Virus record (IMG/VR): IMGVR_UViG_3300045284_000563 | Span: 1 to 53,474 of that record | DNA: 53,474 nucleotides | Strand: one strand, 5' to 3' | Source: a virus | Shown here: one piece after another, positions 4,679 to 45,798 of the stretch | How positions within the stretch are numbered: the first letter of the stretch is position 1 | Layout: each line of letters begins with the position of its first letter | Notes under the pieces: generated by a model | What the model was told of the DNA's origin: nothing | What the model saw: only the letters and a program-made list of their open reading frames with translations | Databases searched by the model: none | Translations under genes and position numbers: made by a program

Positions 4679-5100
4679 CGCTTCCTCTTTTCCGCCTCGA
4701 GTTGCTCTAGTCCACGGTACGACGCCATCCTGAGTACCTCGACGCGCGTGAAACGTTTGCCAGGCTCAGATATTCTCTCGGCGATCCGATCGAGCTCCTT
4801 GACGAATGACTTAGAGTATCGAACCGCTGTCGCCACCCCTAGCTCCGAGTCTGGCGTATGATCCTGTCCGTGCGTTCGAATGTACTCGATCAGATCATCA
4901 GCCGGAGCAAACCACTCACCCTTCGGATTTAGCCGCAAATGCGCGAACTGCACGTGCATGGCGCGCTCCTCCGAACGGCCTCCCGGGATCGCTCCGAGCA
5001 ACTTAACGCCAGCCCCTAACCCGCTCATGCGAACCTTGACGCTCCGGCTGTGCCCGATCTTGATCGGACCATTGCCTCTCTGCGCAAAATACACGCTCAT
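4675..5100 (-). CDS. GIY-YIG-like (MUG113/T5orf172 type) nuclease fused to RHH domain
   Basis: 141 residues from ATG 5100, preceded by GGAGAAACG and overlapping the upstream RHH gene as ATGA; an upstream frame extension lacks support. Residues 1-75: SVYFAQRGNGPIKIGHSRS (YF and KIG replace GIY and YIG), Arg in KVRM, and a Glu in RSEERAMHVQFAHLR followed by GEWF, the pattern of MUG113/T5orf172 proteins. Residues ~85-140: VRYSKSFVKELDRIAERI plus FTRVEVLRMASYRGLEQL, a ribbon-helix-helix-like unit. A paralogue with the same two-part plan is at 14480-14938. Likely a DNA-nicking or DNA-processing protein steered by its RHH part. Confidence 0.7.
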   Translation of the reverse strand: MSVYFAQRGNGPIKIGHSRSVKVRMSGLGAGVKLLGAIPGGRSEERAMHVQFAHLRLNPKGEWFAPADDLIEYIRTHGQDHTPDSELGVATAVRYSKSFVKELDRIAERISEPGKRFTRVEVLRMASYRGLEQLEAEKRKR

Positions 5101-5285
5101 CGACGTTTCTCCACCGGTCGTTGTTCCACTGCCACCAGCCCGAGACGGAGCAGCCACGTGCTGAGCCCGAGACCTTCGCCGGCAGCCGCAGCGTCTAGGG
5201 TCGCCTTTTGCTGCGTCGTCATGCGCACGTTGATGACCTCCTCTTTCGGAGCCCTGACGTTCTTCTTGTTTCGTTTGGTATTCAT
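5097..5285 (-). CDS. RHH-type DNA-binding protein
   Basis: 62 residues: a basic N-terminal arm, beta strand VINVRMT, then two helices (QQKATLDAAAAGEGLG, STWLLRLGLVAVEQ), the layout of DUF1778/MobC-like ribbon-helix-helix proteins. It overlaps the GIY-YIG/RHH gene downstream by 4 bases and could form a pair with it, in a regulator or antitoxin-like role (inference). The protein encoded at 45795-45974 has the same overall plan. Confidence 0.7.
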   Translation of the reverse strand: MNTKRNKKNVRAPKEEVINVRMTTQQKATLDAAAAGEGLGLSTWLLRLGLVAVEQRPVEKRR

Positions 5286-5560
5286 CTTTTTCTCTCCAGA
5301 GTTCTCATGGCCGCCGCGGCGTGATCGCGTGCGGCCCGAAACCGTTCCTTCGCCGAGCCAGGACGAATCGACTCCGAAACGCCGGAGAGGATCTTGTCGG
5401 CCCTGTTGAGCGCCTCAAGCCGTATTTCGGCGGACGCGAACAGTAGCGCATGCCGGATCTCGCTTGGGAGCTTACCCAGGCAGTTTCGACAGAACGACTG
5501 CCGGATCGGGATCGCCTTGCCGCAGCCGCGCGTACGGCAGGCGCTTTCGGTCGGGCTCAT
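5282..5560 (-). CDS. Small Cys-rich (zinc-binding?) protein
   Basis: 92 residues from ATG 5560 (ATGA overlap with the upstream stop). The N-terminal part has CRTRGCGKAIPIRQSFCRNC, a four-Cys pattern fitting a small zinc ribbon. The rest is helical and basic. The start further upstream seen in this frame is rejected because it would run through the coding part of the preceding gene. Function unknown; possibly nucleic-acid binding. Confidence 0.7.
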   Translation of the reverse strand: MSPTESACRTRGCGKAIPIRQSFCRNCLGKLPSEIRHALLFASAEIRLEALNRADKILSGVSESIRPGSAKERFRAARDHAAAAMRTLERKR

Positions 5561-6027
5561 GTGACGTCGTCTCCCATCACGAGTTCGTTTGGTACTTGAT
5601 CCGTCTTCTGTCGAAGCGGGTTGACGTTTTGCCAAAGCCCCTCCTCGTTCTCGTACGCAACGAAGCACGTCCAACTGCACCGGCCGTAACGCGCCAGAAC
5701 GAAGCGACATTCAATGCCGGCGCTCGCAGCGAGCACCATAACGAAGTAACAAGCTTCGTCCGCGTCCATTGGTTTGCGCAGGTCGGCAGACGCCGCTTCG
5801 TCCGGCAATATCGCCCGTATCATCTCCCCGTGGATGGGATCGGGCGCGTACACGCACCGGCGATGCAGTTCGTCGATGATCGCGTTCAACTTGTCTCGAC
5901 GGAGCGGTTTATCACCCGTCAATTTGTGGGCGAGATCACGAACGGCCGTCTTGGTGTGTTCGCGTGCGACGGCGATGTTGAGCGCTTTGATCGTCTTGGC
6001 GAGCCCGGTAGGAAATAAGTTCATCAT
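5557..6027 (-). CDS. Transglutaminase-like fold without the catalytic triad
   Basis: 156 residues from ATG 6027 (overlaps upstream TGA; a second ATG follows at once). The sequence follows the phage transglutaminase-like pattern: an RRDKLNAIIDELHRRCVYAPD segment is followed by MDADEACYFVMVLAASAGIECRF in the place of GDCDDxxxLLAALL-AxGIxxRFV, then SWTCFVAY for xSHVxVEV, then LWQNVNP for WxPLDP. In this alignment by eye, the catalytic Cys, His and Asp are Ala89, Cys121 and Asn136. It may be a non-enzymatic scaffold or binding protein. The family call is tentative because it rests on spacing and a few motifs. Confidence 0.5.
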   Translation of the reverse strand: MMNLFPTGLAKTIKALNIAVAREHTKTAVRDLAHKLTGDKPLRRDKLNAIIDELHRRCVYAPDPIHGEMIRAILPDEAASADLRKPMDADEACYFVMVLAASAGIECRFVLARYGRCSWTCFVAYENEEGLWQNVNPLRQKTDQVPNELVMGDDVT

Positions 6028-15244: not shown

Positions 15245-15427
15245 ATGAACAACGTGCGGCTACAAAAATCGCTTCAACTGCTGCGCGACCTGAACCGGGC
15301 GCGCTCAGCGAAAGCCGCGCCGCTTATTTTGAAGTACGAGACGATCCTGCGTCAGCATGACTACGACGCGCGTGACAAAATCGATCCGAGGCAGCTCTCG
15401 ATCTTCGACCCGATCTTCAAAACATGA
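15245..15427 (+). CDS. Small protein upstream of PrimPol-helicase
   Basis: 60 residues, helical and basic in the first half (LQKSLQLLRDLNRARSAKAA), with DPRQLSIFDPIF at the end. A QLSIFDP-like tail could be a sliding-clamp-binding (QLSLF) peptide; this is inference from the motif. Its TGA overlaps the ATG of the PrimPol-helicase gene by 4 bases, so the two are co-translated. Confidence 0.6.
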   Translation: MNNVRLQKSLQLLRDLNRARSAKAAPLILKYETILRQHDYDARDKIDPRQLSIFDPIFKT

Positions 15428-18180
15428 TGAACGACGCGGCGCCGGTTCACATCTCGCTCCCTGACTCGCTGCTCACAGTCGAGTCCGTCGAGGCCGCAGT
15501 CGAAGTTTACTGGACCTCCGGGCTTAGACCGATCCTCATCCATGCTCCCACCGAAAACGGCGGATGCACCTGCGGCAAGGTTCACGACGTCACAGCGAGC
15601 GGGTCTTCGTCCACCGGCAAACATCCGATCCAGTCGAATTGGCAAAAGCAGCGGGATATTTCCTTCGATGAATTCAGAAACCAACTCGCTCGCCTGAAGT
15701 TCACTCCGAACATCGGTGTCGTGCTCGGCAAGCAACCAAACAGCAACGAGTACCTCATCGCCGTCGACATCGACGACGCAGAACGATTCGCAAGACTCGA
15801 GGAAGAGCTGGGGGCTCTTCCGGAAACACCGCGTTGCGACTCAGGACGAGGTCATCGACTCTTTTACAGTGCTCCGCCGGAGATCGATACGGACCGCCTC
15901 GGAAACGTCACCGGACTCGGTGGAGAGCCTGGCGTCGACATCAAGGTCGAAGGCGGCCAGGTCGTTGTCGCTCCCAGTCTCCACGCAAACGGTAAACGCT
16001 ACACGTGGACCGTCGTCGGCACCGTCACGCCACTGCCGCCGCAGTGGGCGATGCAGCTACTAAAAAAGCTCGAGGCACCCAAGTCCGTCGAGAAGTACAC
16101 GCCTGCTCAGATCAACAAACCTGGACACATACGAAACCGATTCGAGCGTTACCTCGAAGTAGCTGTCACGAACGAAGCAAGGTCGCTCGCCGCCTGCGGC
16201 CAGGGAATGCGAAACAACACGCTCTTCAAAAGCGCGTGTAACCTTTTCAGGTACTGCGGCGGGATGCATCTCTCCCACAAGTGGCAGTGGGTTCACGACG
16301 AGCTACTCCGCGCAGCCAGATCCGCCGGCCTCCCTGAAAACGAATCCCGCAAAACACTCTCGAGCGCAGAAAGAACAGTACGAGAGAGCGGTGAGGTTCG
16401 AACGCCGATGGTGCTCGCCGACCCGGCCCCGTCGGCGCCCCCCGGCTCCCCCCCGCCGGAGGCTACGCATGATGCGGCGGTCGAGACAGCATCGGCCCCA
16501 CCGAGCGACCCATGGCAACTAGCACCGAGTTCGCAAGGGCGACCGATCATCAAAGTTACCACCGAGCTCCACCTCAACGTCGACGAAGCGATTCGCGCCC
16601 TACAAGCCGACGAGAATCTCTACCAACGCGAGAAGAAGCTCGTGTACGTGACGCGCGTCTCACGCGAGCAAAGTAACGCCTCCGCCATCGTCATGGGAGA
16701 CGACGGAAAAGTTCATCGGCAGCTCGTCGAAGGAAGCCCGCAAATCTGCGAACTCGAAATGCCCACAACGCGCGAGCGCTTGACCGCTGCCGCCATTTTT
16801 CAAAAATGGGTCGAGAAGCGTCAGGAGTACGTGCGAATCCTGCCTACGGACGAAATAGTGAGCGCCGTGCACAAAAGAAAACAGTGGAATGGAATCCGGT
16901 CGATCGTCGGCGTCGTAGAGACTCCGACGATGCGACCCGACGGTATGATCGTGCAGACACATGGGTACGACCCGCTCACCCACTACTTGTACATGCCGAG
17001 TGAGAAGTTCCCTGAGGTCGTCGACAGCAACGCGACCCAGGAGAACGCGCGATGGGCGTTCGAATTTCTGAGTGAAGTGTTCGCGGACTTTCCCTATGTG
17101 AGTCCGGCGCACCGATCCGTTCCGGTTGCCGCTATTCTCACTCTGTTGGCGCGCCCGGCGATCTTGGGATCGATCCCTGCGTTCTTGTTTGACGCATCCA
17201 CTCGCGGTTCCGGAAAGACGCTCCAGACCGACGCTATCGCGACCGTGACGACTGGGCGCGGGGCGCCACGCATGAACTACACGATCGACGAGGTCGAGCT
17301 CGAGAAGATCCTCGCTGGGTACGCGCTTAAGGGTTCGACGTTCATCTGCCTCGACAACGTTCCAGCGATGCGCCCATTCGGTGGTGGTCCCATCGATCGA
17401 GTAATCACCGCTCGAGACGAAGTAGATCTGCGGGTACTCGGCGCAACGAAGGTGCTCACACTCCCTTGGCGAGCGCTTCTCATGGCGACCGGCAACAACA
17501 TGAGCCTCTACGGAGACACTGGTCGCCGAGTTCTCATGGCTAGACTCGAACCTACCGAGGAAAACCCGGAGCACAGAACGAAGTTCAAACACGACGATCT
17601 TCTTGAGTGGGTACGAACCCAGCGCCCCCGTCTCGTGTCGGCTGCGTTGCTTCTTCTTCGCGCGTACGTCCGAGCTGGGTTTCCAAACATGGGTTGCGCC
17701 CGCTGGGGCAGCTTCGAAGAGTGGAGTCGACTCGTTCCGCAAGCGATCGTGTTCGCCGGTGGCGCTGATCCGATGGGTGCTCGTCCCGAGTCGGAGGAAG
17801 AAGTCGACAACGAACTTAGAAGCATTCGGTGCATACTCACGAGGCTTCAACAGATTCTTGGTGAAGAGGACTTTCGAATCAGCTCTGTGATCGAGTTGCT
17901 GTACAAGTGCGAGCGCAAACGCGACGCACAAGGGAACATGCAAGAGGACGGGTTAGAAGACCTGCGAGACGCCATCGAATCGCTCGTGGGGCGTCGTGGG
18001 CTCAAGCAGGACGGTCGGAACACGGCTCCCGACCCGGTCGAGTTTGGAAGGCGCCTGGCGTCCTTCAAAGGGCGCGTCATCGGTGGCCTGAGATTGACCT
18101 CGAAAACTGGAGGGGGAGGGATCATGAGATGGCGCATTGCGTCGACAGCAAATCCGGATATAGTAAATTCAACTACTTAG
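15424..18180 (+). CDS. PrimPol-helicase replication protein
   Basis: 918 residues. N-terminal PrimPol domain: Cys/GKHP segment (GGCTCGKVHD..GKHP), acidic motif VDIDD with Asp115-Asp117-Asp118, SGRGHRLFY and GVDIKVEGGQVVVAPSLH with DGxxxV-type catalytic strand. Residues ~235-330 are a helical PriCT-like region, followed by a Pro/Ala-rich linker. The C-terminal helicase part has an RPDGMIVQTHGYDPLT segment, Walker A GSGKT at 595-599, Walker B-like STFICLDN, then TGNNMSLYGDTGRRVLMARLE (sensor and arginine region), the layout of plasmid/prophage PrimPol-helicases. It would start replication by priming and unwinding. It is the first large gene from divergent promoter A. Confidence 0.9.
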   Translation: MMNDAAPVHISLPDSLLTVESVEAAVEVYWTSGLRPILIHAPTENGGCTCGKVHDVTASGSSSTGKHPIQSNWQKQRDISFDEFRNQLARLKFTPNIGVVLGKQPNSNEYLIAVDIDDAERFARLEEELGALPETPRCDSGRGHRLFYSAPPEIDTDRLGNVTGLGGEPGVDIKVEGGQVVVAPSLHANGKRYTWTVVGTVTPLPPQWAMQLLKKLEAPKSVEKYTPAQINKPGHIRNRFERYLEVAVTNEARSLAACGQGMRNNTLFKSACNLFRYCGGMHLSHKWQWVHDELLRAARSAGLPENESRKTLSSAERTVRESGEVRTPMVLADPAPSAPPGSPPPEATHDAAVETASAPPSDPWQLAPSSQGRPIIKVTTELHLNVDEAIRALQADENLYQREKKLVYVTRVSREQSNASAIVMGDDGKVHRQLVEGSPQICELEMPTTRERLTAAAIFQKWVEKRQEYVRILPTDEIVSAVHKRKQWNGIRSIVGVVETPTMRPDGMIVQTHGYDPLTHYLYMPSEKFPEVVDSNATQENARWAFEFLSEVFADFPYVSPAHRSVPVAAILTLLARPAILGSIPAFLFDASTRGSGKTLQTDAIATVTTGRGAPRMNYTIDEVELEKILAGYALKGSTFICLDNVPAMRPFGGGPIDRVITARDEVDLRVLGATKVLTLPWRALLMATGNNMSLYGDTGRRVLMARLEPTEENPEHRTKFKHDDLLEWVRTQRPRLVSAALLLLRAYVRAGFPNMGCARWGSFEEWSRLVPQAIVFAGGADPMGARPESEEEVDNELRSIRCILTRLQQILGEEDFRISSVIELLYKCERKRDAQGNMQEDGLEDLRDAIESLVGRRGLKQDGRNTAPDPVEFGRRLASFKGRVIGGLRLTSKTGGGGIMRWRIASTANPDIVNSTT

Positions 18181-19332: not shown

Positions 19333-19538
19333 TTCGTTCCCACCCACCCGCACTTCCGACACTGCCCCCTCTTCTTGGGTCCAAGCACGAACTCGATCGC
19401 ACGACCGTAGTCGTCGTCGATGAGCCGGCACCCGCACCCGGGACACGTGTTGCGTATCCTGGTATCGAGCGGGAGCGCCATGAAGTGACGGCGATCCTGG
19501 AGAGCTTCGATCTCAGAAATCGATGTCGTCTTCGTCAT
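19329..19538 (-). CDS. Small zinc-ribbon protein
   Basis: 69 residues. CPGCGCRL and CRKCGWVG (two CxxC pairs, about 27 residues apart) form a zinc ribbon around an aromatic/acidic middle. ATG 19538 lies within the 3' end of the helicase gene; ATG 19481 (AGGATCG upstream), just after that gene, is an alternative that leaves out 19 residues. Probably nucleic-acid or protein binding. Confidence 0.6.
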   Translation of the reverse strand: MTKTTSISEIEALQDRRHFMALPLDTRIRNTCPGCGCRLIDDDYGRAIEFVLGPKKRGQCRKCGWVGTK

Positions 19539-21171
19539 TCAAATGATCCATGGGGGAATAACCGACATCGATTTCGGTTTTTGCTTTCTCTCTCGCAGCC
19601 TTGATCGCGTCGATCTTGGCTCGAAGTTTTAGATGCGCCTCGAAGTTCGCTTGCCACTCCGGGTCGCTCGCGAACGACGCCTTTACTTCTTCGCTCCACG
19701 CCCACGGCGGCCACGTTCCGTATCGGCCTTTGTATTTTGCGCTCGCGAATCCGGGCTTGTAGCCTTTCAGTCGAGCCTTCTGCACCATCATGTTGAAGTA
19801 CATGCGGCGCATCTCTTCGGGTGAAGAAGCGAGCTGTCGCAGTTGGTCTTCGCTCTCTCTCGGAAGATCTTCAGACGGATCCGGTGGCGGCGCCTCGAGC
19901 CCGCAGTACGAGCAGAGTCGCTTGTACACCGGCAGGTAGGCGAAGCATCCCTTGCAGATACGAGTAGGCGTCTTCTTTTCAATCGGGCGTCCGCGAGCGT
20001 GAAGCTCCCAGTAGAGATCTTCGTGAGGGAACCCGAGTCGCGGAATGTTGCCGGCGTGATCGAGAAGGAGTGGCGGAACGCTCGGGTGTTCGGTGCAACC
20101 TGGCCGGCAACCCGGGTGCCATGGACGAAAAATGCGGCCCCCCGACTGTCGCCAGAGAACGAGTGACTGTGTCGGTCTCGCGTGCACGACACATTTCGCG
20201 CTGGGGACATCGACACCCTCGAGCAAGATCCCCACGTTGGTAATCGCGTCGAGATCTCCGGTTCCGAGAGCCCGCACAACGCGACGACGCTCGGTCTCTG
20301 TGGTGTTCGCGTCTAAGTGCGCGATGCGAACCCCTGCCTTCCAAAACCTGTCGCAGATGTCTATCGAGTGCTGAATGCTCACCGCGAAAATGAAAGTTCT
20401 GCGACGGGGGCCCTCGACGAGTCCGTTGGCTCCTTTTTCTCTTGGGTACATATGAGCGAGTTTTTCCCAATGCTCGAGGAGTCCACCCACGAGCGACTGG
20501 TCGCGCATCATGTCGCCGAGTACCTCTTCGTCGTAGTCGCCGCCGACGAGTCGAACACCGGAGAGATCGATCTCGGTCGGACCGCTGTAGCAATACGGCG
20601 CCACGATGAATCCGTCTTTGATGAGCGTCTCGTAGGTGCAGACGACCTCCAGGCATTCGAAGAGATCTCCGAGCGGGCGACCGTCGTAGCGCGTTGGGGT
20701 AGCAGTGAACCCAAGAATGATCGACTGCTTGTAGTGTTCGAGAAGTGCGAGGTAGCTGTCACTCACGGCGCGGTGCGCCTCGTCGATGAGTACGATGCCC
20801 GCGGGGGGCTTGTAGCGGCGCGCGAGCGTTTGGATCGACGCGACCTGTACGGTGGCGCTCGGGTTCGTGCGCGCATCGTCGGAACGGATGACGCCGACGT
20901 TCGTAATCCCGACTCTGTGGAGCTCTTCGACGCATTGGTCGATGAGCTCCATACGGTGCGCGACGAAGAGTACCGGAACCGACGAGGTTCGGATGACGCT
21001 CGCGATCATTGTCATCTTTCCACCTCCGGTGGGAGCCACGAGCAGGATGCGGCGCTTGCCGTCGCGTACGCGTTCTCGGAGGGTTTGGATCGCTTTGGAT
21101 TGGTAGGGGCGGAGCTTCGGCGACGGGGCCGAGAAGAGGGGGACGCGATCGAAGAGGGGGAGGGTGGACAT
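19513..21171 (-). CDS. SF2 DEAH-type helicase with C-terminal zinc domain
   Basis: 552 residues. N-terminal LRPYQSKAIQTLRE (Q-like) is followed by Walker A GGGKMT at 49-54, where the usual Thr next to Lys is Met53, DEAH at 130-133, FTATPTR, and the C-terminal RecA half with motif VI LWRQSGGRIFRPW. A Cys domain (CKGCFAYLPVYKRLCSYCG) and a charged helical tail follow. Resembles helicases of type I restriction and UvrB/RecG-like phage helicases. Likely role is DNA unwinding or annealing in replication and repair. Confidence 0.9.
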   Translation of the reverse strand: MSTLPLFDRVPLFSAPSPKLRPYQSKAIQTLRERVRDGKRRILLVAPTGGGKMTMIASVIRTSSVPVLFVAHRMELIDQCVEELHRVGITNVGVIRSDDARTNPSATVQVASIQTLARRYKPPAGIVLIDEAHRAVSDSYLALLEHYKQSIILGFTATPTRYDGRPLGDLFECLEVVCTYETLIKDGFIVAPYCYSGPTEIDLSGVRLVGGDYDEEVLGDMMRDQSLVGGLLEHWEKLAHMYPREKGANGLVEGPRRRTFIFAVSIQHSIDICDRFWKAGVRIAHLDANTTETERRRVVRALGTGDLDAITNVGILLEGVDVPSAKCVVHARPTQSLVLWRQSGGRIFRPWHPGCRPGCTEHPSVPPLLLDHAGNIPRLGFPHEDLYWELHARGRPIEKKTPTRICKGCFAYLPVYKRLCSYCGLEAPPPDPSEDLPRESEDQLRQLASSPEEMRRMYFNMMVQKARLKGYKPGFASAKYKGRYGTWPPWAWSEEVKASFASDPEWQANFEAHLKLRAKIDAIKAAREKAKTEIDVGYSPMDHLNDEDDIDF

Positions 21172-21172
21172 G

Positions 21173-22480
21173 TTAAACCAGGCAGGTCAGACGCTCAGAG
21201 GCGCGCGTGATTGCAGTGTACGCAAGACGTCTCGTATTCTCGTTCGAGTAATCCTGTCGCCAGTCCACGACGACGACCGCGTGTTTGAACTGGCTTCCCT
21301 GGCTCTTGTGAATCGTCATCGCGTAGCCGAAATCGAAAAGTCGACCCGCGTTTCCCATCGTGTGGACGTCGATCCCAGCCGCCTTCAACTCGTCGACCGA
21401 CGCGAACGGCTTAGCTCGGCGAAACTGATCGCGACAGATTTCGTGCTCCGTCTCTGGTAGACCCTCGTCTGGAAATTCGATCTTCGCGCGCATGAGCCAC
21501 CACTCCTCCTTGTACGGTGAGGTAGCTTCCTCGGTGAGAAGTCCGCGCATCCCGTTGTAGATCGGAGGGTAGTTCCGGAGCGCGATGAGCGGCTCGCCGG
21601 TTTGCGGTGGCTTGCCAGCGAAACCCAGATGCCCTCGAACGGTTCGGTTCACGTGCACCCGAGTGGCGTTGCGCCAGCACAAGACGGCGGCGCCGAGTTT
21701 GTTCTCCGTCAACATCTCGGCAAGCCTTGGATGCGTCATGTCGCGAGTATTGCCGAACCGAAGTTGGTCTCCGTCTGCAAGCTCTCTAGCTAACCGTCCC
21801 TCTTCGCGTAGTACGCGCGAGAGCTGAATGATTGGGCTGCCCTCGGCTTGTCGATGAATCTTCTCAAGGCGCAACATCGGGCGCGTGACGAGTGAGCCTT
21901 CGCTCATCACCGGCGGAAGCTGTCCGTGGTCGCCGACAGCGAGGATCCGAACACCGTGCTGTTGGATGTCCGCGACAATGCGGGCGTCCACCATGCTCGC
22001 CTCGTCCAGCACCACGAGATCGTAGTTCCGATCGAGCTCGATGCGTTTTTCCCAACCGAGGAGCTCCTCGGTCACGCTGTCGATGAACGGTCGATAGAGA
22101 AGTCGATGGATCGTTCCACAGAACGGACGCTCGGCTTCCTCGCTGCCTGACGAGTAAAAAAGATGTCCCCAGTGTCCGTCGAGCTTGCTGTCGTCGTCCG
22201 TGCAGATGCGACTGGTAGTAGAGACTCCGGAGCCGTTTAGCTTGCGACCGAGAACGCTCGAAGCGCGACCGGTGAAGCAGATGTACGCGACGCGCAGATG
22301 GCTCATCTCGTGAGCGAAGAGACCGAGCAGGGAACTCTTCCCAACTCCGGCGTAGCCTCCTACGGTCAGCAACGGACTGTTCGGTGTGCGTACCCAGTCG
22401 AGCATCGACTCGTAGACGCGGCGCTGATCGGGGGAGAGATCGGCGCGCGTGAGGCGGAGGTCGGCAGCGGCGCTGGTCAT
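21173..22480 (-). CDS. SF1B Dda/RecD-like helicase
   Basis: 435 residues from ATG 22480 (ATGA overlap). Walker A GYAGVGKSS at 42-50, Walker B LVVLDEASMVD, motif III GDHGQLPPV, and a C-terminal MTIHKSQGSQFKHAVVVVDW (motif V) and YTAITRASERLTCLV (motif VI). This is the layout of T4 Dda and RecD2. It would move 5'-3' and help replication-fork progress. One of three helicases in the module besides PrimPol. The longer frame upstream is antisense-derived and rejected. Confidence 0.9.
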   Translation of the reverse strand: MTSAAADLRLTRADLSPDQRRVYESMLDWVRTPNSPLLTVGGYAGVGKSSLLGLFAHEMSHLRVAYICFTGRASSVLGRKLNGSGVSTTSRICTDDDSKLDGHWGHLFYSSGSEEAERPFCGTIHRLLYRPFIDSVTEELLGWEKRIELDRNYDLVVLDEASMVDARIVADIQQHGVRILAVGDHGQLPPVMSEGSLVTRPMLRLEKIHRQAEGSPIIQLSRVLREEGRLARELADGDQLRFGNTRDMTHPRLAEMLTENKLGAAVLCWRNATRVHVNRTVRGHLGFAGKPPQTGEPLIALRNYPPIYNGMRGLLTEEATSPYKEEWWLMRAKIEFPDEGLPETEHEICRDQFRRAKPFASVDELKAAGIDVHTMGNAGRLFDFGYAMTIHKSQGSQFKHAVVVVDWRQDYSNENTRRLAYTAITRASERLTCLV

Positions 22481-22659
22481 CGTCTCGCAATCTCGTGCAA
22501 TTCTTTTTTCGAAGGTCCCTTCGCTTCGCGCGCCTCCGCAATCACGTGTCCGTGCCCGAGCTCGCGAAGCGCCTCGATGACGTCGTGCCCGGTGAGGTCG
22601 TCCATTTTGAGCGCCATCGTCGCAAGCGTGACTAGCATTTCGTGTTCGGTGATCTTCAT
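22477..22659 (-). CDS. Small helical protein, unknown
   Basis: 60 residues, helical (MLVTLATMALKMDDLTGHDV, KGPSKKELHEIARR). Overlaps both neighbours by 4 bases, between the deoxyribosyltransferase-like gene and the Dda-like helicase. A helicase partner is possible from position only. Confidence 0.6.
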   Translation of the reverse strand: MKITEHEMLVTLATMALKMDDLTGHDVIEALRELGHGHVIAEAREAKGPSKKELHEIARR

Positions 22660-23084
22660 CCGAGCGCCTCGGCGAGCTCACCCATGTTGGTGAGAATGAT
22701 CGCCTCGCGGAACATGAGCTCGGGTTCGGTGTCGTCGAACGCAACCACGTAGCCTTGTTTTCCTTGCCCCATCGCGTAGCCGAATTCGAACGACGCCGAG
22801 CGCCCGCATGGGAGCACGTAGACGATAGCCTCGCACCAGCGGACGTGACCGATGTCTGCCTCGTAGCTCTCGACAGCGCGCGGATGTTCGAGCATCTGTC
22901 GCCAAACATCCGGCGCGACCTTGTCGACGAATGCGGTCGGAGCGCCGACTTGTTTCCAGGTGAACCCGTCGTCGTCTTTCTTCGGGTGCCGAAAGTCGTA
23001 GACGTCATGACCGAACTCTCGAAGCGCGCTCACGATGGTGGGCTGCAACGGATTGCGCCAGGACGATGCAACGTAGATTTTCAT
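22656..23084 (-). CDS. Nucleoside 2-deoxyribosyltransferase-like protein
   Basis: 142 residues from ATG 23084 (ATGA overlap with the RHH gene). MKIYVASSWRN at the N-terminus, VYDFRHP, the central Asp/Glu-rich helix, and SASFEFGYAMGQGK with the Glu in the catalytic-helix position of the nucleoside 2-deoxyribosyltransferase family. May act on nucleotide pools or modified bases. A second superfamily member is at 13027-13446. Confidence 0.7.
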   Translation of the reverse strand: MKIYVASSWRNPLQPTIVSALREFGHDVYDFRHPKKDDDGFTWKQVGAPTAFVDKVAPDVWRQMLEHPRAVESYEADIGHVRWCEAIVYVLPCGRSASFEFGYAMGQGKQGYVVAFDDTEPELMFREAIILTNMGELAEALG

Positions 23085-23347: not shown

Positions 23348-24043
23348 ATGGACGACGCTCCCAACGCGAGCGCGCGGATTCGTTATTGCGCGCTCTTGGA
23401 TACAGAAACGACGGGGTTGAGTCCGGCTACCGATCGAACGATCGAGGTTGCCGTTGCGTTATTCGACCTCAAACACGCCGAAGTCGTGGCGAGTTTCGCT
23501 AGCCTCATCAAAGGCGAAGCGAAGAACGAATCGGAAGAGGCGAACAACATCCCGCCGACGATGCTCCCGGAGGCGCGAGAGCCGGAGCTAGTGTGGCGCG
23601 CGGCGCGTTGGATCATTGAACCGGCGCAAGTGGTCATCGCTCACAACGCCGATTTCGACAAACAGTTCACGCCAGATCTCGGCAAACCCTGGGTGTGCAG
23701 CGAGAACGATATCAAGTGGCCCGGCCGCGCCCGCGGCGGTTCACTCGTTCATCTCGCGCTCTCGCTTGGGCTCGGTGTCGCGCACGCGCACCGGGCAATG
23801 TCCGATGTTGACACGCTTGCGCGAGTTCTGACTCGGCTCGCAGCGCTCGGGCACGAGCTCGAACCGATCATCGTCCATGCGATGCGCCCAAAAGTCATGT
23901 GCCACTCACTCGCGCCGTTCGAACAGAAAGACGTCGTGAAGAACGCCGGTTTCCGATGGGACGGTGATCGAAAAGTTTGGTGGCGAAGAATGCCGCTCGA
24001 GGATACAGAAGCGCTGCCGTTCAAGGTGAGGGTGGTGCAGTGA
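23348..24043 (+). CDS. DEDDh 3'-5' exonuclease
   Basis: 231 residues. LLDTETTGL (Asp18, Glu20), AHNADFDKQF (His99, Asp102) and AHRAMSDVDTLARV (His148, Asp153) make a complete DnaQ-like exonuclease core. Residues ~180-231, VKNAGFRWDGDRKVWWRR, are an extra small domain of the kind that often has a W...GF.W...K.W pattern. First gene after promoter B. Likely proofreading or end processing in the recombination module. Confidence 0.85.
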   Translation: MDDAPNASARIRYCALLDTETTGLSPATDRTIEVAVALFDLKHAEVVASFASLIKGEAKNESEEANNIPPTMLPEAREPELVWRAARWIIEPAQVVIAHNADFDKQFTPDLGKPWVCSENDIKWPGRARGGSLVHLALSLGLGVAHAHRAMSDVDTLARVLTRLAALGHELEPIIVHAMRPKVMCHSLAPFEQKDVVKNAGFRWDGDRKVWWRRMPLEDTEALPFKVRVVQ

Positions 24044-24468
24044 CAAGAAAAGGACGTCCGCTAACGCACGGAATGAGCTACACGAGAACGTACCGATCGT
24101 GGAAGATGATGTGGAGTCGAGTCCGTGGATCGTCGGACGAACGACATACGCGAGATTGGTCGGAACGTGGAATCACGGTATGCGATAGGTGGATCAAGTT
24201 CGAAAATTTTCTCGCGGACATGGGGGAGCGTCCAGAAGGGAAAACACTGGACCGGATCAAAAATGAACTTGGGTATTCATTAGACAATTGCAGGTGGGCG
24301 ACCCCCTCAGAACAACAGCGCAACACTCGACGAACGAAGATGTTGACGCATCGAGGGATTACTCTTTGCCAAAAAGACTGGGCGAAGCGTCTCGGTATGT
24401 CGAGTCCTGGTTTGGGTGCTCGACTGAAGAAAATGACGGTTGAGGAAGCGTTATCGGTGGAAAAGTGA
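24040..24468 (+). CDS. HNH endonuclease (freestanding, homing type)
   Basis: 142 residues from GTG 24040 (GTGA overlap at both ends). SYTRTYRSWKMMWSRVRG, then GITVCDRWIKFENFLADMG, RPEGKTLDRIKNELGYSLDN and CRWATPSEQQRN are the motifs of phage HNH homing nucleases; the C-terminus (LTHRGITLCQKDWAKRLGMS) resembles a NUMOD-type HTH. It sits exactly where the N-terminal half of the next nuclease would be expected. Less GC-rich than neighbours. Confidence 0.85.
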   Translation: MTRKGRPLTHGMSYTRTYRSWKMMWSRVRGSSDERHTRDWSERGITVCDRWIKFENFLADMGERPEGKTLDRIKNELGYSLDNCRWATPSEQQRNTRRTKMLTHRGITLCQKDWAKRLGMSSPGLGARLKKMTVEEALSVEK

Positions 24469-25592
24469 AAGTCTATCTTCTTGAGACGAAAACCACCTCC
24501 GAGGATCTCGGCCCCGGCTCCACCTTCTGGAAACGCACCATCCTCGACCCTCAGCTCTCGCTCTATCTTCCTGCGCTCCGCAAGATGGGCCACGACCCTC
24601 ACGGGTGCGTCTACGACGTGCTTCGGAAGCCCGGACAACTCCCGTCAACCGTTGCTCTGCTCGATGAGCAAGGTCTCAAGATCGTACTCGACGCGAGCGG
24701 TCAGCGCGTAACCACCAAAGCCGGAAAATGGCGTCAGACCGGCGACGCTGATGCGGGCTATGTACTTCAGTCTCGTCCAGAGACTCCAGAGGAGTACGGC
24801 CTCCGGTGTCTCGAGGCCATCGCCGAGAACCCGGACCGGTACTACGCGCGTGGCGTCGTCGTGCGGCTCGAGTCTGACGAGCGCGAAGCGGCGTTCGACA
24901 CCTGGAACACGGCAACGCAGATGCGAGAAGCGCGACGCCTCAACATCTACCCTCGTAACCCTGATTCCTGCGTGAACTGGGGCCGCGAGTGCGACTACTT
25001 GAACGTGTGCGCCGGCATGGCGGACATCAACGACCCGCTGTTCTTTCGATTCGAGGAAGACGTTCATGAAGAACTCGCTGAGGAAGGCGTAGCTACGAAA
25101 CTGACCGACGACGCGAGCTTGCTCACGCAGAGCGCGATGCGCGCCTACCGGTCATGTCCGCGTAAGTTTCAGTTGCGATACGTGGCGAGAATTCGACCGA
25201 TCAAGAAACCTGAGACGCTCACCACTGGTCACAGTGTTCACGCGGCGCTCGATGCGTTCCGAAGAACCGGTGGAGATATCGACGCAGCGAAGAAAGCGCT
25301 CGAGACCGAAGATCTGTTCGTTCGCGCAAAGGAAGAGGCGATGCTCATGGGCTACGCCGCTCGCTGGGGCAAGCCCACCGGCGTTGTCGCAATCGAGCAG
25401 ACGTTCCGGATCCCTTTGATCAACCCCGACACCGGTGCGGCATCGCGCACGTTCTCGCTCGGCGGCAGAGTGGACGCGATCGTCTCTGCTGATTCGGCTC
25501 AAGAGCTCATGAGCGCGATGCCGGTAGTGCCGGCGGACAACTTGGAAGCGACGCTCGAGGCGTCAATCAAACAACTGGAAGGAGTCCCATGA
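24465..25592 (+). CDS. Cas4/RecB-type nuclease with circularly permuted halves
   Basis: 375 residues; GTG at 24465. The halves are in swapped order. First, the usual C-terminal half: LLETKTTSEDLGPGST (ExK Glu7, Lys9), LDPQLSLYLPAL (QxxxY Gln30, Tyr34), and a three-Cys cluster C169, C176, C182. Then the usual N-terminal half: SAMRAYRSCPRKFQLRYV (C231), GHSVHAAL (His259), VVAIEQTF (Glu311), SLGGRVDAIV (Asp337). So all nuclease motifs and four Fe-S cysteines are present once, but permuted. It likely makes an active 4Fe-4S exonuclease if the halves pair. The next gene is a Sak4-like ATPase. Confidence 0.85.
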   Translation: MKVYLLETKTTSEDLGPGSTFWKRTILDPQLSLYLPALRKMGHDPHGCVYDVLRKPGQLPSTVALLDEQGLKIVLDASGQRVTTKAGKWRQTGDADAGYVLQSRPETPEEYGLRCLEAIAENPDRYYARGVVVRLESDEREAAFDTWNTATQMREARRLNIYPRNPDSCVNWGRECDYLNVCAGMADINDPLFFRFEEDVHEELAEEGVATKLTDDASLLTQSAMRAYRSCPRKFQLRYVARIRPIKKPETLTTGHSVHAALDAFRRTGGDIDAAKKALETEDLFVRAKEEAMLMGYAARWGKPTGVVAIEQTFRIPLINPDTGAASRTFSLGGRVDAIVSADSAQELMSAMPVVPADNLEATLEASIKQLEGVP

Positions 25593-26497
25593 TCGATCCG
25601 AAGCGCATCACCGAAGGTAAACAGAAACGCGAGCCGCGAGTACTCATCTACGGAGGTGACGGCGTCGGCAAAACTCGCTTCGCCGCCGGGGCTCCGGACC
25701 CGTTTTTCATCGACGCGAACAGGGGCAGTCTCGAGTACGACGTCAAGCGTGTGATACCGGATACGTGGCCAGAGGTCCTCGAGCTGATCGATGCGGTCGA
25801 AAAAAACTCGATCAAGTGCAAGAGTCTCGTTCTCGACGCGGTCGGCGATCTCGAGCACATGGGTAACGCTGAGTTCTTTCCCGGAACGACGATCGACAAA
25901 TGGGACGGCGGCTACGGGCGCGGAGAAACGTACGCGCTCACACGTTGGCGCGAACTTCTGGGAGCTCTCGAGCGTGTGTGGACCTCCGGAAAGACCATCA
26001 TTCTAGTCGGACACATGCAAGTGAAACACTTCGACGACCCGACCGGGCCCGGGTTCGATCGGTTTGGAGTGGCCATGCGCGAAAGGATCGCTGGTCTCAT
26101 CCGACAGTGGTCGGACTACGTATTTTTTGCGCGTGAAGAGGTTTCTCAACAAAAGGTGAGCGGCGACATCAAAGCCGTAACCAACGGAACGCGCTGGATC
26201 TACACGCACCGTTGTCCGGCGTTCGATGCCAAGTCACGAGGCACAACTCTCTTTCCGGACAGAATCCTTCTCTCGTGGGACGAGTTTGCTAAATCGAGAT
26301 CCGCGGACGCAGAGCGCGCGGTCGAGCTCCGTAAAGAGATCGACTCGATGCTCGTCGAGATCGGGGACAAGAAGCTCGACGAAATGGTGAAGGAGTACCT
26401 CAGGGCGAACCCGGGGATGATCGTCGAGGCGCGCAACCGCGTGTCTGCTCGATTGGACGAGACGCGCGCAAGTGCGTCGCAACAGGCAACAAAGTAA
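25589..26497 (+). CDS. Sak4-like recombinase ATPase
   Basis: 302 residues, ATGA overlap with the nuclease gene. Walker A GGDGVGKTRF at 22-31, Walker B-like KSLVLDAVGDLE, then a RecA-like core with a helical C-terminus. The size, motifs and position between a Cas4-like nuclease and an SSB-like gene fit Sak4-type phage single-strand-annealing/recombination ATPases. Confidence 0.8.
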   Translation: MIDPKRITEGKQKREPRVLIYGGDGVGKTRFAAGAPDPFFIDANRGSLEYDVKRVIPDTWPEVLELIDAVEKNSIKCKSLVLDAVGDLEHMGNAEFFPGTTIDKWDGGYGRGETYALTRWRELLGALERVWTSGKTIILVGHMQVKHFDDPTGPGFDRFGVAMRERIAGLIRQWSDYVFFAREEVSQQKVSGDIKAVTNGTRWIYTHRCPAFDAKSRGTTLFPDRILLSWDEFAKSRSADAERAVELRKEIDSMLVEIGDKKLDEMVKEYLRANPGMIVEARNRVSARLDETRASASQQATK

Positions 26498-26508
26498 AAG
26501 GAGAGATC

Positions 26509-26988
26509 ATGATCAACGCTGGAAACTACGAAGGCAAAGCGATCAAGGGGAAGGTGCAACTCGGAGAAACCCCGAACGGCACGCTCCAGATTGCGATCGA
26601 CATGGATCTGTTCGAGAAGGACAAAAACGAAACCATCGGTCAGATGACGACGTTCCTGTACTTCAGCGACTCGGCTGCCGTGTACTCCTACGAGCGACTT
26701 CGCTTGCTCGGGTGGAAGGGCAAGGGGCCGGAGGACATCGACAAGCTCGATGACATTTTCGACGTGAAGGTTCCGGTTCGGGTGACGGCTCCAGAGTCCT
26801 ACAAGGACAAAGACGGATCGATGAAGACGGGAACTAGCAAGCTCGAAATCATGGCCGGCGCGGGCACCGTCATTCTGAACAAGCCCCTCGACGCGAACAC
26901 GTTCAAGGCAAGGCTCCGAGCTATCGGTGGCGGCGGTGGCGGAAGCGCTCCGGCCGGCGGTGGGGGCGCGAACCCTCCCCCGTTCTGA
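26509..26988 (+). CDS. SSB-like protein
   Basis: 159 residues, AAGGAGAG before ATG. N-terminal beta-rich domain (YEGKAIKGKVQLGETPNG) fits an OB fold, as in DUF669-type phage SSBs. The tail is GGGG/Pro-rich and ends PPPF rather than the usual acidic DDDIPF, so partner binding may differ. Lies after the Sak4-like gene, in the usual place for a recombination SSB. Family call partly from context. Confidence 0.6.
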   Translation: MINAGNYEGKAIKGKVQLGETPNGTLQIAIDMDLFEKDKNETIGQMTTFLYFSDSAAVYSYERLRLLGWKGKGPEDIDKLDDIFDVKVPVRVTAPESYKDKDGSMKTGTSKLEIMAGAGTVILNKPLDANTFKARLRAIGGGGGGSAPAGGGGANPPPF

Positions 26989-27071: not shown

Positions 27072-28499
27072 ATGACCAAGAAAAACTGGACCAAGTATCA
27101 GCTCGCGATTTTCAATAACGTTGCCACTGGAACGGGCCACACTGTCGTCAGCGCCGTCGCCGGTAGCGGTAAAACCACCACGATCGTCGAAGCCCTGACC
27201 CACATCCCGTCGGGCTGTACGACGCTCTTCGTGGCCTTCAATAAGAGCATCGCCAACGAGCTCGATAAGCGCGCTCCTCGCGGTGTTGAGGTCTCCACGC
27301 TGCATTCCTACGGTCTAAAGACCATCACCCGCGCTTTCGGGCGCCTCCGCATCGACGCCAAGCGAGTGGACGACATGGTGCGCGCCATGCACGGCGACGA
27401 GTCGAAAACGTTCGACTTTCGTCGTGACCTCGCGAAAACGGTCTCGCTCGCCAAGGGGATGCTCGCCAGCGACGAAGCCGAGATCGACGCCATCATCGAC
27501 GCTTTCGGTATCGAGTCGGCGAAGAACGGGTCTAGGGCAGCGTTCGTCGCGGACGTGCTCAAGATCCTGCTTCGGTGCACCGAGGTCTCTGAGGACGGGC
27601 GCATCGACTTCGATGACATGATCTGGCTCCCGGTCGTGTTGAAGCTCACGCAATTGCAGTTCGATCGCGTGTTCGTCGACGAGACCCAGGACCTGAACGC
27701 GGCTCAGATCGAGATGACGATGCGCGCGGTCAAGCCCGGTGGCCGTATCTGCGCGGTCGGCGACCCTCGGCAGGCGATCTACGGTTTTCGTGGTGCGGAC
27801 TCGAGCGCCGTTGACAACGTCGTGAAGAGACTCGACGCGACCGTGCTCCCGCTCAGTGTGTGTTACCGCTGCTGCAAAGCGGTCATCCAAACGGCGAAAG
27901 AGGTCGTTCCGGAGATCGAGTGGGCGCCGGACGCCGAGGACGGCATGGTGAGCGATGCGACGGTTCAGGAAATGAAGCAAGGAGCTCGCGCGGGCGACTT
28001 CATCCTGAGCCGCTCGAATGCGCCGCTGATTTCGCTTTGCATGTACTTCATCAGGGAAGGCCGCCCGGCGAACATTCAGGGTCGCGACGTCGGCGCGAGT
28101 CTCGCTGCGTTCGTCAAGAAGAGCAAGGCGAAGAACGTGGAGGCGCTCTGTGACTACGTCGAGGACTGGCGCGACAAGGAATGCGCTCGTCTCGCTGCGA
28201 AGCACCGCGACACCCAGGCGGTCGAAGACCGCGCGGAGTGCATTCTGGCGCTTAGTGAGGGTGCAGCGTCAGTCGCCGACGTCATCGAACGCATCGAATC
28301 GATGTTCGCCGACAAGGACGACCTGTCGAGGATCACGCTATCAACGACGCACAAGGCCAAGGGCCTAGAGCGAGACCGGGTGTGGATACTCGCATCGACC
28401 TACCGACGCCGGCCGGGCGCGGAAGAGGAAAATCTCTACTACGTGGCAGTGACTAGGGCCCGCAAGGAGCTCTTCCTCGTCGAGGGGAAGATCAAGTGA
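27072..28499 (+). CDS. UvrD/Rep-like SF1 helicase
   Basis: 475 residues, AAGGAG before ATG 27072. Walker A AGSGKTT at 30-36, VFVDETQD, AVGDPRQAIYGFRGAD, and C-terminal STTHKAKGLERDRVW and YYVAVTRARKELF: the complete UvrD-type motor, compact, with reduced 1B/2B regions. 3'-5' unwinding in replication or recombination. Transcribed after a hairpin; GTGA overlap with the next gene. Confidence 0.9.
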   Translation: MTKKNWTKYQLAIFNNVATGTGHTVVSAVAGSGKTTTIVEALTHIPSGCTTLFVAFNKSIANELDKRAPRGVEVSTLHSYGLKTITRAFGRLRIDAKRVDDMVRAMHGDESKTFDFRRDLAKTVSLAKGMLASDEAEIDAIIDAFGIESAKNGSRAAFVADVLKILLRCTEVSEDGRIDFDDMIWLPVVLKLTQLQFDRVFVDETQDLNAAQIEMTMRAVKPGGRICAVGDPRQAIYGFRGADSSAVDNVVKRLDATVLPLSVCYRCCKAVIQTAKEVVPEIEWAPDAEDGMVSDATVQEMKQGARAGDFILSRSNAPLISLCMYFIREGRPANIQGRDVGASLAAFVKKSKAKNVEALCDYVEDWRDKECARLAAKHRDTQAVEDRAECILALSEGAASVADVIERIESMFADKDDLSRITLSTTHKAKGLERDRVWILASTYRRRPGAEEENLYYVAVTRARKELFLVEGKIK

Positions 28500-42589: not shown

Positions 42590-43831
42590 CTACTTGCGTT
42601 TCAGGATCGTGAGGCCGTTGTTGTTTCGGAAGCGTTCTACCACCTGCCACTCTGGGTGCGCGGCGACGAACTCTTCCACGGCGGTCCATAGCCCCGGCCT
42701 GGTGCTGTCCTCGCTCATGTCTCCGAAGACTTCGGTGTCGTGCATGATGATGTACTTCTTCGCGCACACTCCGTGCTTTTCTAGTTCAGCCTTGAGCTGC
42801 CGATAGACGTGGTAGGTGTCGATGAAGAGCAGATCGACGGGCTCGATCGTCAAGTCGAGCGTGTCTCTGCGCTCGAACGCGAGATCGGTTCCGGCCTCTT
42901 TCGCGAGTTTCCCTTGCAGTGCGAAGTCGGCGTCGCGGATGTCGTAGCAACGGAGTTTTTTCGGTCTGGCGCGCAGGAACGCCCAAGTGGAACGGCCGAT
43001 GCCGAATTCGGTCACGCTTTCACATTCTTTGGCGTACTTGCAGAGCGTCTCCATGTGCTCGTTGATGTCTGCGGGGGTGTCTCGAAAGAGTACGAAGTGT
43101 CGTTCGATTTCGTCCATGGTTCCGTTCCTGATCCCATCTCCGATGTTGTGGCAAACTTTTTCCAGGTAAGTGTCCCAAATTTCACGTTCGCGATTGACGA
43201 TAGGCGTCCGCTCGTGCACGTGTCCGGTGCTGACCCCACCACGGTGCCAGCAGACTAGATCGCGTAGTGTTACGCCGTGCCAACCGGCTTTTGACAAGAG
43301 CGTGTGGATCCAACCGTCGCCGTACCAAATGAGAAGCTCGGCAGGTACCGGGAAGGCAAGCTCGGTCGCTCTGCGCGTCATGGCGAAGAAGGATCCGCCG
43401 GTGCCTTGCGTGTCGGTCGGTTCAACGGAGGGGGTGTAGTGTCGATCGATCTCTTCGACGTTGTGAACAATGCGCCCGAACCATAACTCGTTTTCGTTGT
43501 TCTTTTTTGCCTGCTCGTAGCGCATCAACAGCGACTCCGCCCAACCAGGAGCCGTTGCGAGATCAGCGTTTGCGACCACGAAGATCTCGGCGCTCGAGGC
43601 GAGAAATCGCGCCGCGAGCTCGTTCCAGGCCGGGTAGACGTACACATTTTTTTCGTGTCGAATTATCGAAATCTCGTTCGACATCTCGTAGAGCGCCAGC
43701 TTCACATCGGTCGAGCCTCCGTTGTCGACCGCAACCACATCCACCGAGGGGTGTTGGAAAGAGCGCAACGCCTTGAGCAAGAGCTCGCGATCTTCTGCAA
43801 AGCAAGCGGTGCCCAGCATAATTCGCGTCAT
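42590..43831 (-). CDS. Glycosyltransferase 2 / methyltransferase two-domain protein
   Basis: 413 residues from ATG 43831 (ATGA overlap). N-terminal GT-A domain (residues 1-~270): RIMLGTACFAEDRELLLKAL, VVAVDNGGST, VVANADLATAPGW (nucleotide-sugar/metal Asp region), LIWYGDGWIHTLLSKAGW. C-terminal Rossmann domain: VTEFGIGRSTWAFLRA, PVDLLFIDTYHVYRQLK, YIIMHDTEV: a CmcI/Methyltransf_24-type SAM-dependent methyltransferase. So one protein may transfer a sugar and then methylate it or the peptide. Adjacent to TylF gene and GT/propeller gene. Confidence 0.75.
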   Translation of the reverse strand: MTRIMLGTACFAEDRELLLKALRSFQHPSVDVVAVDNGGSTDVKLALYEMSNEISIIRHEKNVYVYPAWNELAARFLASSAEIFVVANADLATAPGWAESLLMRYEQAKKNNENELWFGRIVHNVEEIDRHYTPSVEPTDTQGTGGSFFAMTRRATELAFPVPAELLIWYGDGWIHTLLSKAGWHGVTLRDLVCWHRGGVSTGHVHERTPIVNREREIWDTYLEKVCHNIGDGIRNGTMDEIERHFVLFRDTPADINEHMETLCKYAKECESVTEFGIGRSTWAFLRARPKKLRCYDIRDADFALQGKLAKEAGTDLAFERRDTLDLTIEPVDLLFIDTYHVYRQLKAELEKHGVCAKKYIIMHDTEVFGDMSEDSTRPGLWTAVEEFVAAHPEWQVVERFRNNNGLTILKRK

Positions 43832-45798
43832 GGTTTGATCCATTTCATGGCTTCGATCTCCTTGATGTCGACCTGCGATATCCACGCCTCTCTGTCGCGA
43901 ACTCCGTAGGAAAGAACGAGTTGTTCGTTGTCCAGGGCGAGACCGGCGCAGAACTCGATACCGAATCCGGCAAAGACCCACGCAGGGGAGACGGCGATCA
44001 CGCTGAACTTCTTGTCAAGTCGCACGAACCGATGAAGGTAGACCCGACTTTCGTCCGTTTCGATGGTCTCGTGTGTGACGCAAAGGTAACCGTCTTGCAG
44101 TGCGATAGCCGCTCCGCCACGTAGATGTTCGAGGGCGAAGGGACACTTTCGGAGCGGCCCGGGAAGAATTGCCGTCGGATCGAGTGAGTAAATCCACGTG
44201 AGCATGCCGTCGATAGCGAGCGGCATCCAATTCTTCTCGTGCATTTGGTTGGTTGGCTGCACCTCACGGCGCGTGACGTCACCCTCGTCATTGAAAAAGA
44301 GTCGTGCAATGAGCCGTCGATCTGTGTCGTGGTCACAGACCGTGGCACTCGCCCCAAGAACGTTGCCGTCCAGTTCGTCGAGCGAGACCAGCCGAATATC
44401 TTCGTACCCGACGATGCGCGACGGCACTCGAAGTGAACGATCTAGGTCTCGGATTAGCCTGTGGTCTACAAGTTCCACGTTGGGTGTGAGTTTGCCGAGG
44501 TAGTTCTCCGTACGCACGATGCCCTCAGGGTCGTGGACGGTGTATTCACGCCCGTTCAGTGAGTAGTTTACGGTCCGCACCACGCACCAGAGCTCGCCCT
44601 TGTGCCAGCAGATACTCGGGTTCATCGGATGCCATCCGTTTGGTGGCCTGAACGTGATCTCTGTGTTGTGCGCGGTTGGGCAGAAGCTCGAGAGAGCCGG
44701 TGGCCGGAGCATTGATCGGGCCTCGAATCGGCGGGGATTCGATTGCGTGATGCTGAGCCGGTCTAGTTCGTGATTATCCGAGACGCCAAGGCGGGCGCGT
44801 TTGGCAGCGTGAAAATCTAGCTCGGCTTGTGCGCGTTCAGGGCCGGGCGGGAGTACGAATCGAAGCACGTCGTAAGGGAGTTCGTAGAGCGCCGGCATAT
44901 GGCGGAACCAGTCGCGCTCGGGGCCACAGCCTTTGTAGCGCCCCACTGCCGCAGCCATTCGTGACCACGCAATGGCCTGATCGGCGCGTCCGAGTTTGCA
45001 CGCGCACAATCCTGCCATCCAAGCGCACTCCGCGAAATGGGCGTTCGCAGAAAGACCTCGTGCAGCGGCCACGATGGCCTCGTCGAACAATTCTAAATTG
45101 AAAAGTTGCTCGGCCTGTTTGTATGCGGCCCAGGCGGCTTCGTCGCCTACCTTTCGAAGCCCGACACATTCACCGAACGCTATGGCGGCGAGCTCCTTAG
45201 CGCCGATCCCTTCGTAAGACGCACCGAGATAGTAACGCCAACGTGGATCGTCTGGGTGTTTCTTGATGTAATCCGTGAGGAGTCTGATATCGCGTTCGAA
45301 CTTTTTTTGCGCCTGCTCGTGGGATTTGCCGAGCTCGTAGAAAGTTGCGCCTTCGAGTGTTTCGAACGACCTGACTATGAGTGTTTCGTGCGTCGGTCCG
45401 GTGAAGTACGCTCCCGACGAAGCGCGAACGATTTTTTCTTTCGGGTATGATCCGTCTGCCGCTTCGATGCGTATCGAATCGGCCCGCACATTAGAAAGCG
45501 TCGCACGGAGATCGAGATTTCCGAAGTCTAGGCGCTCGTCGGAGTCGACGATGAGTGTCCAGGTTGCCCCGAGCGCTTTGGCGGCTTTGAGTCCGGCGTT
45601 GCGCGCCGTCGAGAAGTCCGACCATTTGTGTTTGACGATTTCTAGCTTGTCGCCCGCGACTTCTTTCGCTCGTTCGACGGTGCCGTCTTTGATGCCGGTG
45701 TCGAGCAAGAGAACAAGGTCGACGTGATCTACGACGCTTAGGAGCGCGTCCGCGATTTCGTGTTCGCGACTGTCCGTGATGGTGACGCTGACGATCAC
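43828..45798 (-). CDS. Three-part glycosyltransferase, TPR, GH130-like protein
   Basis: 656 residues from GTG 45798 (GTGA overlap with the RHH gene); the longer frame is rejected. Residues ~1-185: GT-A domain with VDHVDLVLLLDTGIKD, FSTARNAGLKAA and WTLIVDSDERLDF. Residues ~190-320: TPR-like helices. C-terminal ~290 residues: five-bladed propeller-like domain of GH130/GH43 type, with WHPMNPSICWHKGELW, YEDIRLVSLDEL, GHRGGAA-like and GIEFCAGLALDNEQLVLSYG. Such an enzyme could add sugars to a fibre and trim or read glycans. Peak size for a phage glycosyltransferase. Confidence 0.7.
   Translation of the reverse strand: MIVSVTITDSREHEIADALLSVVDHVDLVLLLDTGIKDGTVERAKEVAGDKLEIVKHKWSDFSTARNAGLKAAKALGATWTLIVDSDERLDFGNLDLRATLSNVRADSIRIEAADGSYPKEKIVRASSGAYFTGPTHETLIVRSFETLEGATFYELGKSHEQAQKKFERDIRLLTDYIKKHPDDPRWRYYLGASYEGIGAKELAAIAFGECVGLRKVGDEAAWAAYKQAEQLFNLELFDEAIVAAARGLSANAHFAECAWMAGLCACKLGRADQAIAWSRMAAAVGRYKGCGPERDWFRHMPALYELPYDVLRFVLPPGPERAQAELDFHAAKRARLGVSDNHELDRLSITQSNPRRFEARSMLRPPALSSFCPTAHNTEITFRPPNGWHPMNPSICWHKGELWCVVRTVNYSLNGREYTVHDPEGIVRTENYLGKLTPNVELVDHRLIRDLDRSLRVPSRIVGYEDIRLVSLDELDGNVLGASATVCDHDTDRRLIARLFFNDEGDVTRREVQPTNQMHEKNWMPLAIDGMLTWIYSLDPTAILPGPLRKCPFALEHLRGGAAIALQDGYLCVTHETIETDESRVYLHRFVRLDKKFSVIAVSPAWVFAGFGIEFCAGLALDNEQLVLSYGVRDREAWISQVDIKEIEAMKWIKP

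Follow-up and report, generated by a model that had tools for sequence, protein, structure and literature searches.

The locus considered here raises the question of whether a nuclease gene whose two halves stand in exchanged order encodes a genuine enzyme and, if so, how such a chain arose. It lies in the window, by which we mean the whole analysed stretch of 53,474 nucleotides of the virus record IMGVR_UViG_3300045284_000563. In PD-(D/E)XK nucleases of the RecB and Cas4 kind, the part with the first cysteine, the His helix, and the GRVD motif usually precedes the part with the ExK motif. In the window nuclease, the motifs run from E7/K9 (ExK) and Q30/Y34 (QxxxY) through Cys169/176/182 to Cys231, His259, E311, and D337 (GRVD), and each named catalytic or cysteine residue occurs once, in agreement with the rotated order described in the initial annotation. 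We defined three segments, namely A (Cys1 and the His helix), B (β1–β2 with GRVD), and C (ExK to Cys4), and the window nuclease has the order C-A-B (Table 1). The breakpoint had been placed right before the ExK strand, and there the only possible start was found: the frame opens only seven codons upstream of GTG 24465, which is the sole start codon ahead of this strand, so the gene truly begins at the ExK strand, and the in-frame stop just upstream shows that this frame lacks no front half. The TGA stop overlaps the ATG of the next gene. The linker that joins the native termini consists of the native C-terminal tail, with its HEEL motif, followed by the native N-terminal tail, with LLTQS. Taking all the evidence below together, we consider it highly probable that the gene encodes an intact, circularly permuted PD-(D/E)XK exonuclease of the RecB/Cas4 type, with a four-Cys site, which belongs to a phage recombination module and arose by duplication and trimming.

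Table 1. Coordinates in the window of the permuted nuclease gene, its parts, and the adjacent genes.
Feature	Position	Strand	Remarks
DnaQ-like 3'-5' exonuclease gene	23348..24043	+	overlaps next gene by GTGA
HNH endonuclease gene	24040..24468	+	overlaps nuclease start by GTGA
Circularly permuted (C-A-B) PD-(D/E)XK exonuclease gene	24465..25592	+	GTG start, 375 aa
Segment C (normally C-terminal)	24465..25064	+	ExK, QxxxY, three Cys
ExK codons in segment C	E7 24483-24485; K9 24489-24491	+	
QxxxY codons in segment C	Q30 24552-24554; Y34 24564-24566	+	
Cys codons in segment C	Cys169 24969-24971; Cys176 24990-24992; Cys182 25008-25010	+	
Linker between Cys182 and Cys231	25011..25154	+	joins native termini
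Segment A (normally N-terminal)	25110..25265	+	Cys231 25155-25157; His259 helix 25239-25241
Segment B, β1-β2	25269..25484	+	E311 25395-25397; GRVD Asp337 25473-25475
New C-terminal tail past β2 strand	25485..25589	+	length and sequence vary among CAB relatives
Sak4-like single-strand annealing ATPase gene (phrog_124)	25589..26497	+	overlaps nuclease stop by ATGA
Probable single-strand DNA binding protein gene	26509..26988	+	from position and weak indirect similarity to annotated Tunturi SSB; family searches gave no match of its own
UvrD-type helicase gene	27072..28499	+	

The motif set of PF12705 (PDDEXK_1) is complete in the window nuclease (H259, D337, E7/K9, and Q30/Y34), but the usual chain order is not, and a full-length stretch appears only after rotation. 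In the native order, the profile matches with 52.3 bits against a gathering cut-off of 22, in two separate stretches, with residues 220–340 aligned to profile positions 2–132. Once the halves had been swapped, a comparison already suggested in the initial annotation, a single near-full-length stretch (2–246 of 247) scored 59.1 bits. The same operation raised the score of another CAB protein, L098, from 42.8 to 58.3 bits (one stretch, 4–246 of 247) and that of a BCA protein, L024, from 35.2 to 45.3 bits (one stretch, 3–196), while the linear protein L018, rotated to the CAB order, lost its match (at E 0.01). With phrog_1218, the match went from 4e-21 in two stretches to 1.7e-23 in one. The Cas4 name first given to the protein does not hold: TIGR00372 (Cas4, NCBIfam) reaches 17.7 bits where its cut-off is 65, no CRISPR adaptation genes occur among the neighbours examined (DnaQ, HNH, Sak4, SSB-like, and UvrD), and the protein is a phage Sak4-linked exonuclease (phrog_1218/PF12705).

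Segment HMMs for A, B, and C were built from relatives and used in viral-contig scans, one bacterial-genome scan, and one phage search, with all three segments required within one ORF. This yielded 153 distinct, mostly viral sequences, some of them near-identical, of which 80 are linear (ABC), 54 are BCA, and 19, including the window, are CAB. The permutation is not the single case it had been taken for, since its order recurs and a second rotation exists beside it. The break in CAB always lies between the GxxD strand (β2) and the ExK strand (β3), and that in BCA separates the His helix from the helix after it. Among the BCA proteins is the one annotated as 'exonuclease' in Tunturi_1 and Tunturi_2, two isolated phages of Tunturiibacter with complete genomes. 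In one genome-contig scan, two linear genes and one BCA gene were found in MAGs. The latter (L191, Chthoniobacterales MAG, JACSRX010000002.1, match 5001–5606) has Sak4 nearby; the locus is possibly a prophage and a hint to a host. A plasmid search gave no match, nor did the Tunturi protein, as a single query, match any of the viral contigs.

We take the linear order as ancestral on the grounds that the wider superfamily has this order. An in-frame, head-to-tail tandem duplication of such a linear gene, followed by trimming that removed the front of the first copy and the back of the second, would produce C-A-B; in other phages, a permutation of the same enzyme at a different loop separately gave BCA. 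This account, which the initial annotation had put forward, fits best because both native tails are complete where the old ends are joined: the Cys4–Cys1 linker has a median of 46 residues in BCA and 47 in CAB, compared with a median of 48.5 for the sum of the tail after Cys4 and the tail before Cys1 in linear relatives, and the permuted linkers keep the native 'HxEL' end and then the native 'LTxS' start. The duplication route to circular permutation predicts intermediates (PMC3320104). The search of relatives returned the linear form but not the duplicated one: no ORF among the ~150 relatives contained a complete extra segment in the segment HMM scan, double C matches in the raw scans being a single C profile interrupted by an insertion or deletion, and six-frame segment scans found no remnants of a second nuclease copy near the gene. 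Because neither a duplicated nor a half-trimmed intermediate occurs among these relatives, the duplication step itself is one that we infer.

The main rival is fission followed by fusion, another recognised route to circular permutation (PMC3320104), in which a linear gene would have been split at the β2–β3 hairpin into AB and C genes that were later fused as C-AB. The final anatomy would be identical and the enzyme would work alike, the origin alone differing. However, this route demands a re-ordering of genes on top of the split and the fusion, C and AB nowhere occur as separate genes among the ~150 relatives, and both complete native tails stand at the join, as a head-to-tail duplication would leave them; we regard it as unlikely.

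Under duplication and trimming, the number of events can be estimated from trees in which the segments were put in a common order. On these order-normalised trees, the order has to change 4 to 6 times. By the AU test, one common origin was rejected for all permuted forms (p 0.022), for all BCA proteins (p 0.036), and for the main BCA group together with CAB (p 0.044), whereas for the two large BCA clades it was not (p 0.245), so the sequences indicate at least two permutation events and probably three, with modest statistical weight; one origin for CAB is possible. The protein L119 (335–1417, with L120) is BCA yet groups with the linear ABC proteins and has its own version of the break (...ALAALTTTTK / METKTTDPFDLARA...), apparently a separate permutation. 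A broader reading, to which we give even chances, is that natural circular permutation has a hot spot in the Sak4-linked nucleases of phages, where all three orders are in use through at least three independent duplication-and-trim events. Two features would favour its recurrence, namely that the native ends come together at the Fe-S site and that new termini are tolerated in two surface loops, and it may be driven by functions that the phage itself supplies for annealing and recombination.

The structure prediction asked for in the initial annotation was favourable with a broad alignment but not with a narrow one. With only 11 permuted rows, AlphaFold2 gave a poor model (pLDDT 50.7), whereas a 110-row alignment, in which full permuted proteins were joined by C-A pieces of BCA proteins and by pieces of linear relatives (A-B and C), yielded one compact fold with a pLDDT of 93.1 and a pTM of 0.87, all five models exceeding 92 pLDDT. 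The good model thus depended on the rows with fragments of linear and BCA relatives. In this model, the strands 2–11, 307–319, and 326–341, together with the helices, fit one core domain. Since both halves are predicted to pack into one nuclease domain, the front of the chain would supply E7/K9 and its rear H259/E311/D337, and the four Cys residues would come together across a 49-residue linker. The weak regions of the model are the linker near residues 201–220 (pLDDT ~67–69) and the new C-terminal tail. Foldseek against BFVD retrieved phage PD-(D/E)XK nucleases (best E 7e-13, TM about 0.5). Against the PDB, it retrieved nothing significant (top match AddAB 4ceh, E 0.046), which is expected because Foldseek requires collinear chains; a sequence search of solved structures found no relative.

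The same linker is long enough, and in its middle part modelled with low enough confidence, for the C part of one chain to pair with the AB part of another in a domain-swapped dimer or oligomer. Although the monomer prediction is compatible with such a swap too, the monomer model is itself of high confidence and the linker does not exceed the combined length of the native tails, so that we hold an exchange between chains to be quite improbable.

Conservation was assessed in 125 sequences (56 ABC, 53 BCA, and 16 CAB). Apart from gaps, K9, Q30, Y34, His259, E311, D337, Cys231, Cys176, and Cys182 are invariant, as is E7 save for an Asp in 13 BCA proteins; Cys169 is replaced in five ABC proteins only. 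All four cysteines are kept throughout the CAB and BCA sequences and occupy the usual places of 4Fe-4S nucleases, one before the His helix and three after QxxxY, which, judged from the sequences, probably form a site that binds a 4Fe-4S cluster. Pairwise dN is 0.02–0.24 in each of A, B, and C, against a dS of 0.4–2.6 or saturated, with dN/dS of ~0.03–0.3 per segment, so both halves are under purifying selection. The record of the window has one PDDEXK_1 match, the permuted nuclease, and no second PDDEXK_1 gene; of 19 other records (up to 124 kb), 18 likewise have one match and the exception holds two. The rotated motifs, the invariant residues, the purifying selection in all segments, the high-confidence predicted fold, and this sole match in the record raise the earlier 'possibly active' to probably active.

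The new C-terminal tail, variable as it is across CAB relatives, might be expected of a decayed, inactive relic of a duplicated nuclease, but the retention of every catalytic and cysteine residue in all CAB sequences, the low dN/dS in the three segments, and the lack in this record of another PDDEXK_1 gene as a replacement make decay very improbable. That the order is an assembly artefact or a chimeric contig, the refutation foreseen in the initial annotation, is practically negligible, even though the window is a linear metagenome virus record with undefined ends: neither chance nor a contig join explains CAB in 19 distinct sequences from many metagenomes, with conserved neighbours, and BCA in 54, among them proteins of two isolated phages whose genomes are complete.

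The nuclease gene is part of a run of genes that overlap one another, DnaQ-HNH-nuclease-Sak4, as the GTGA overlap before it and the ATGA overlap after it show. Sak4 lies directly downstream of the nuclease in 11 of 13 CAB, 32 of 34 BCA, and 43 of 47 ABC loci, that is, in 86 of the 94 loci with enough sequence. Judging from family and neighbours, the nuclease most likely acts in the manner of a RecB/Cas4/AddB-type exonuclease within a recombination module of DnaQ, nuclease, Sak4, SSB-like protein, and helicase, where it would resect phage DNA ends and so provide the single strands annealed by Sak4.

The HNH gene is a passenger, absent beside several CAB relatives. Depending on the phage, differing HNH genes stand upstream or downstream of the CAB nuclease (window 24040–24468; L001, L007, L011, L015, L017, and L186), or there is none; these HNH genes are mobile insertions. 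HNH insertion was rejected as a general cause of the permutation, as no HNH gene lies beside the CAB genes L012, L016, L188, and L098. Rfam gave no credible match that would point to an intron or an RNA element, whether within the nuclease gene or next to it. At L003:935–1795, a ParB-like gene, identified from reading its sequence, separates the CAB nuclease from Sak4.

Comparisons of the window nuclease with known systems place it nearest to the linear phrog_1218/PF12705 phage exonucleases beside Sak4 (L018, L102, and L020), which have the same segments, catalytic and cysteine residues, and neighbours, with 50–56% identity in segment C. The difference is that these are A-B-C with free native termini, while the window nuclease is C-A-B with the native termini joined. 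The exonuclease of Tunturi_1/Tunturi_2 (XJP11549.1, XOB77130.1) is likewise permuted and followed by Sak4 and SSB, with ~27% identity over the common C-A stretch, but its break differs (B-C-A, with new ends after the His helix). Cas4 (TIGR00372) shares with the window nuclease the RecB-like type and the set of cysteines, one of the N-terminal and three of the C-terminal type; the window nuclease, however, falls far below the Cas4 cut-off, belongs to a phage recombination module, and has a rotated chain. The nuclease domain of AddB/AddAB (PDB 4ceh), which is of the Fe-S nuclease type, is unpermuted and lies within a large helicase-nuclease, and its match to the window nuclease is insignificant.

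Natural circular permutants are uncommon. They are known in prokaryotic DNA methyltransferases and in the HD domains of Cas10 (PMC3320104, PMC7824862, PMC3150331), whose folds are unrelated to that of the window nuclease. In agreement with the earlier statement that no such Cas4 permutation had been described, we found none in Cas4/RecB nucleases in the open literature, in a search that did not extend to the NAR review of 2012 on the PD-(D/E)XK superfamily. One family with a linear form and two rotations, the same neighbours, and the same active site constitutes a natural experiment on the positions at which a PD-(D/E)XK nuclease tolerates opening, as well as on the origin and spread of permutations. 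New termini for the engineering of Fe-S nucleases are indicated, too. Order-dependent annotation (HMM, Foldseek) detects just half of such permuted proteins.

The deposited 'exonuclease' genes of Tunturi_2 (L004:2749–3786) and Tunturi_1 (L033:2752–3786), both phages of Acidobacteriota, are BCA, and their annotation is silent on the permutation. Two BCA nucleases (L040 and L047) lie ~63 kb apart in IMGVR_UViG_3300020229_000001 (94 kb). The window itself is a tailed phage with a large replication module: it carries a gene for a primase/polymerase-like protein (15424–18180, +), and the genes at 19513–21171, 21173–23008, 43828–45843, and 46887–48320 (all −) comprise two helicases, one of them Dda-like, a glycosyltransferase, and tail-fibre genes.
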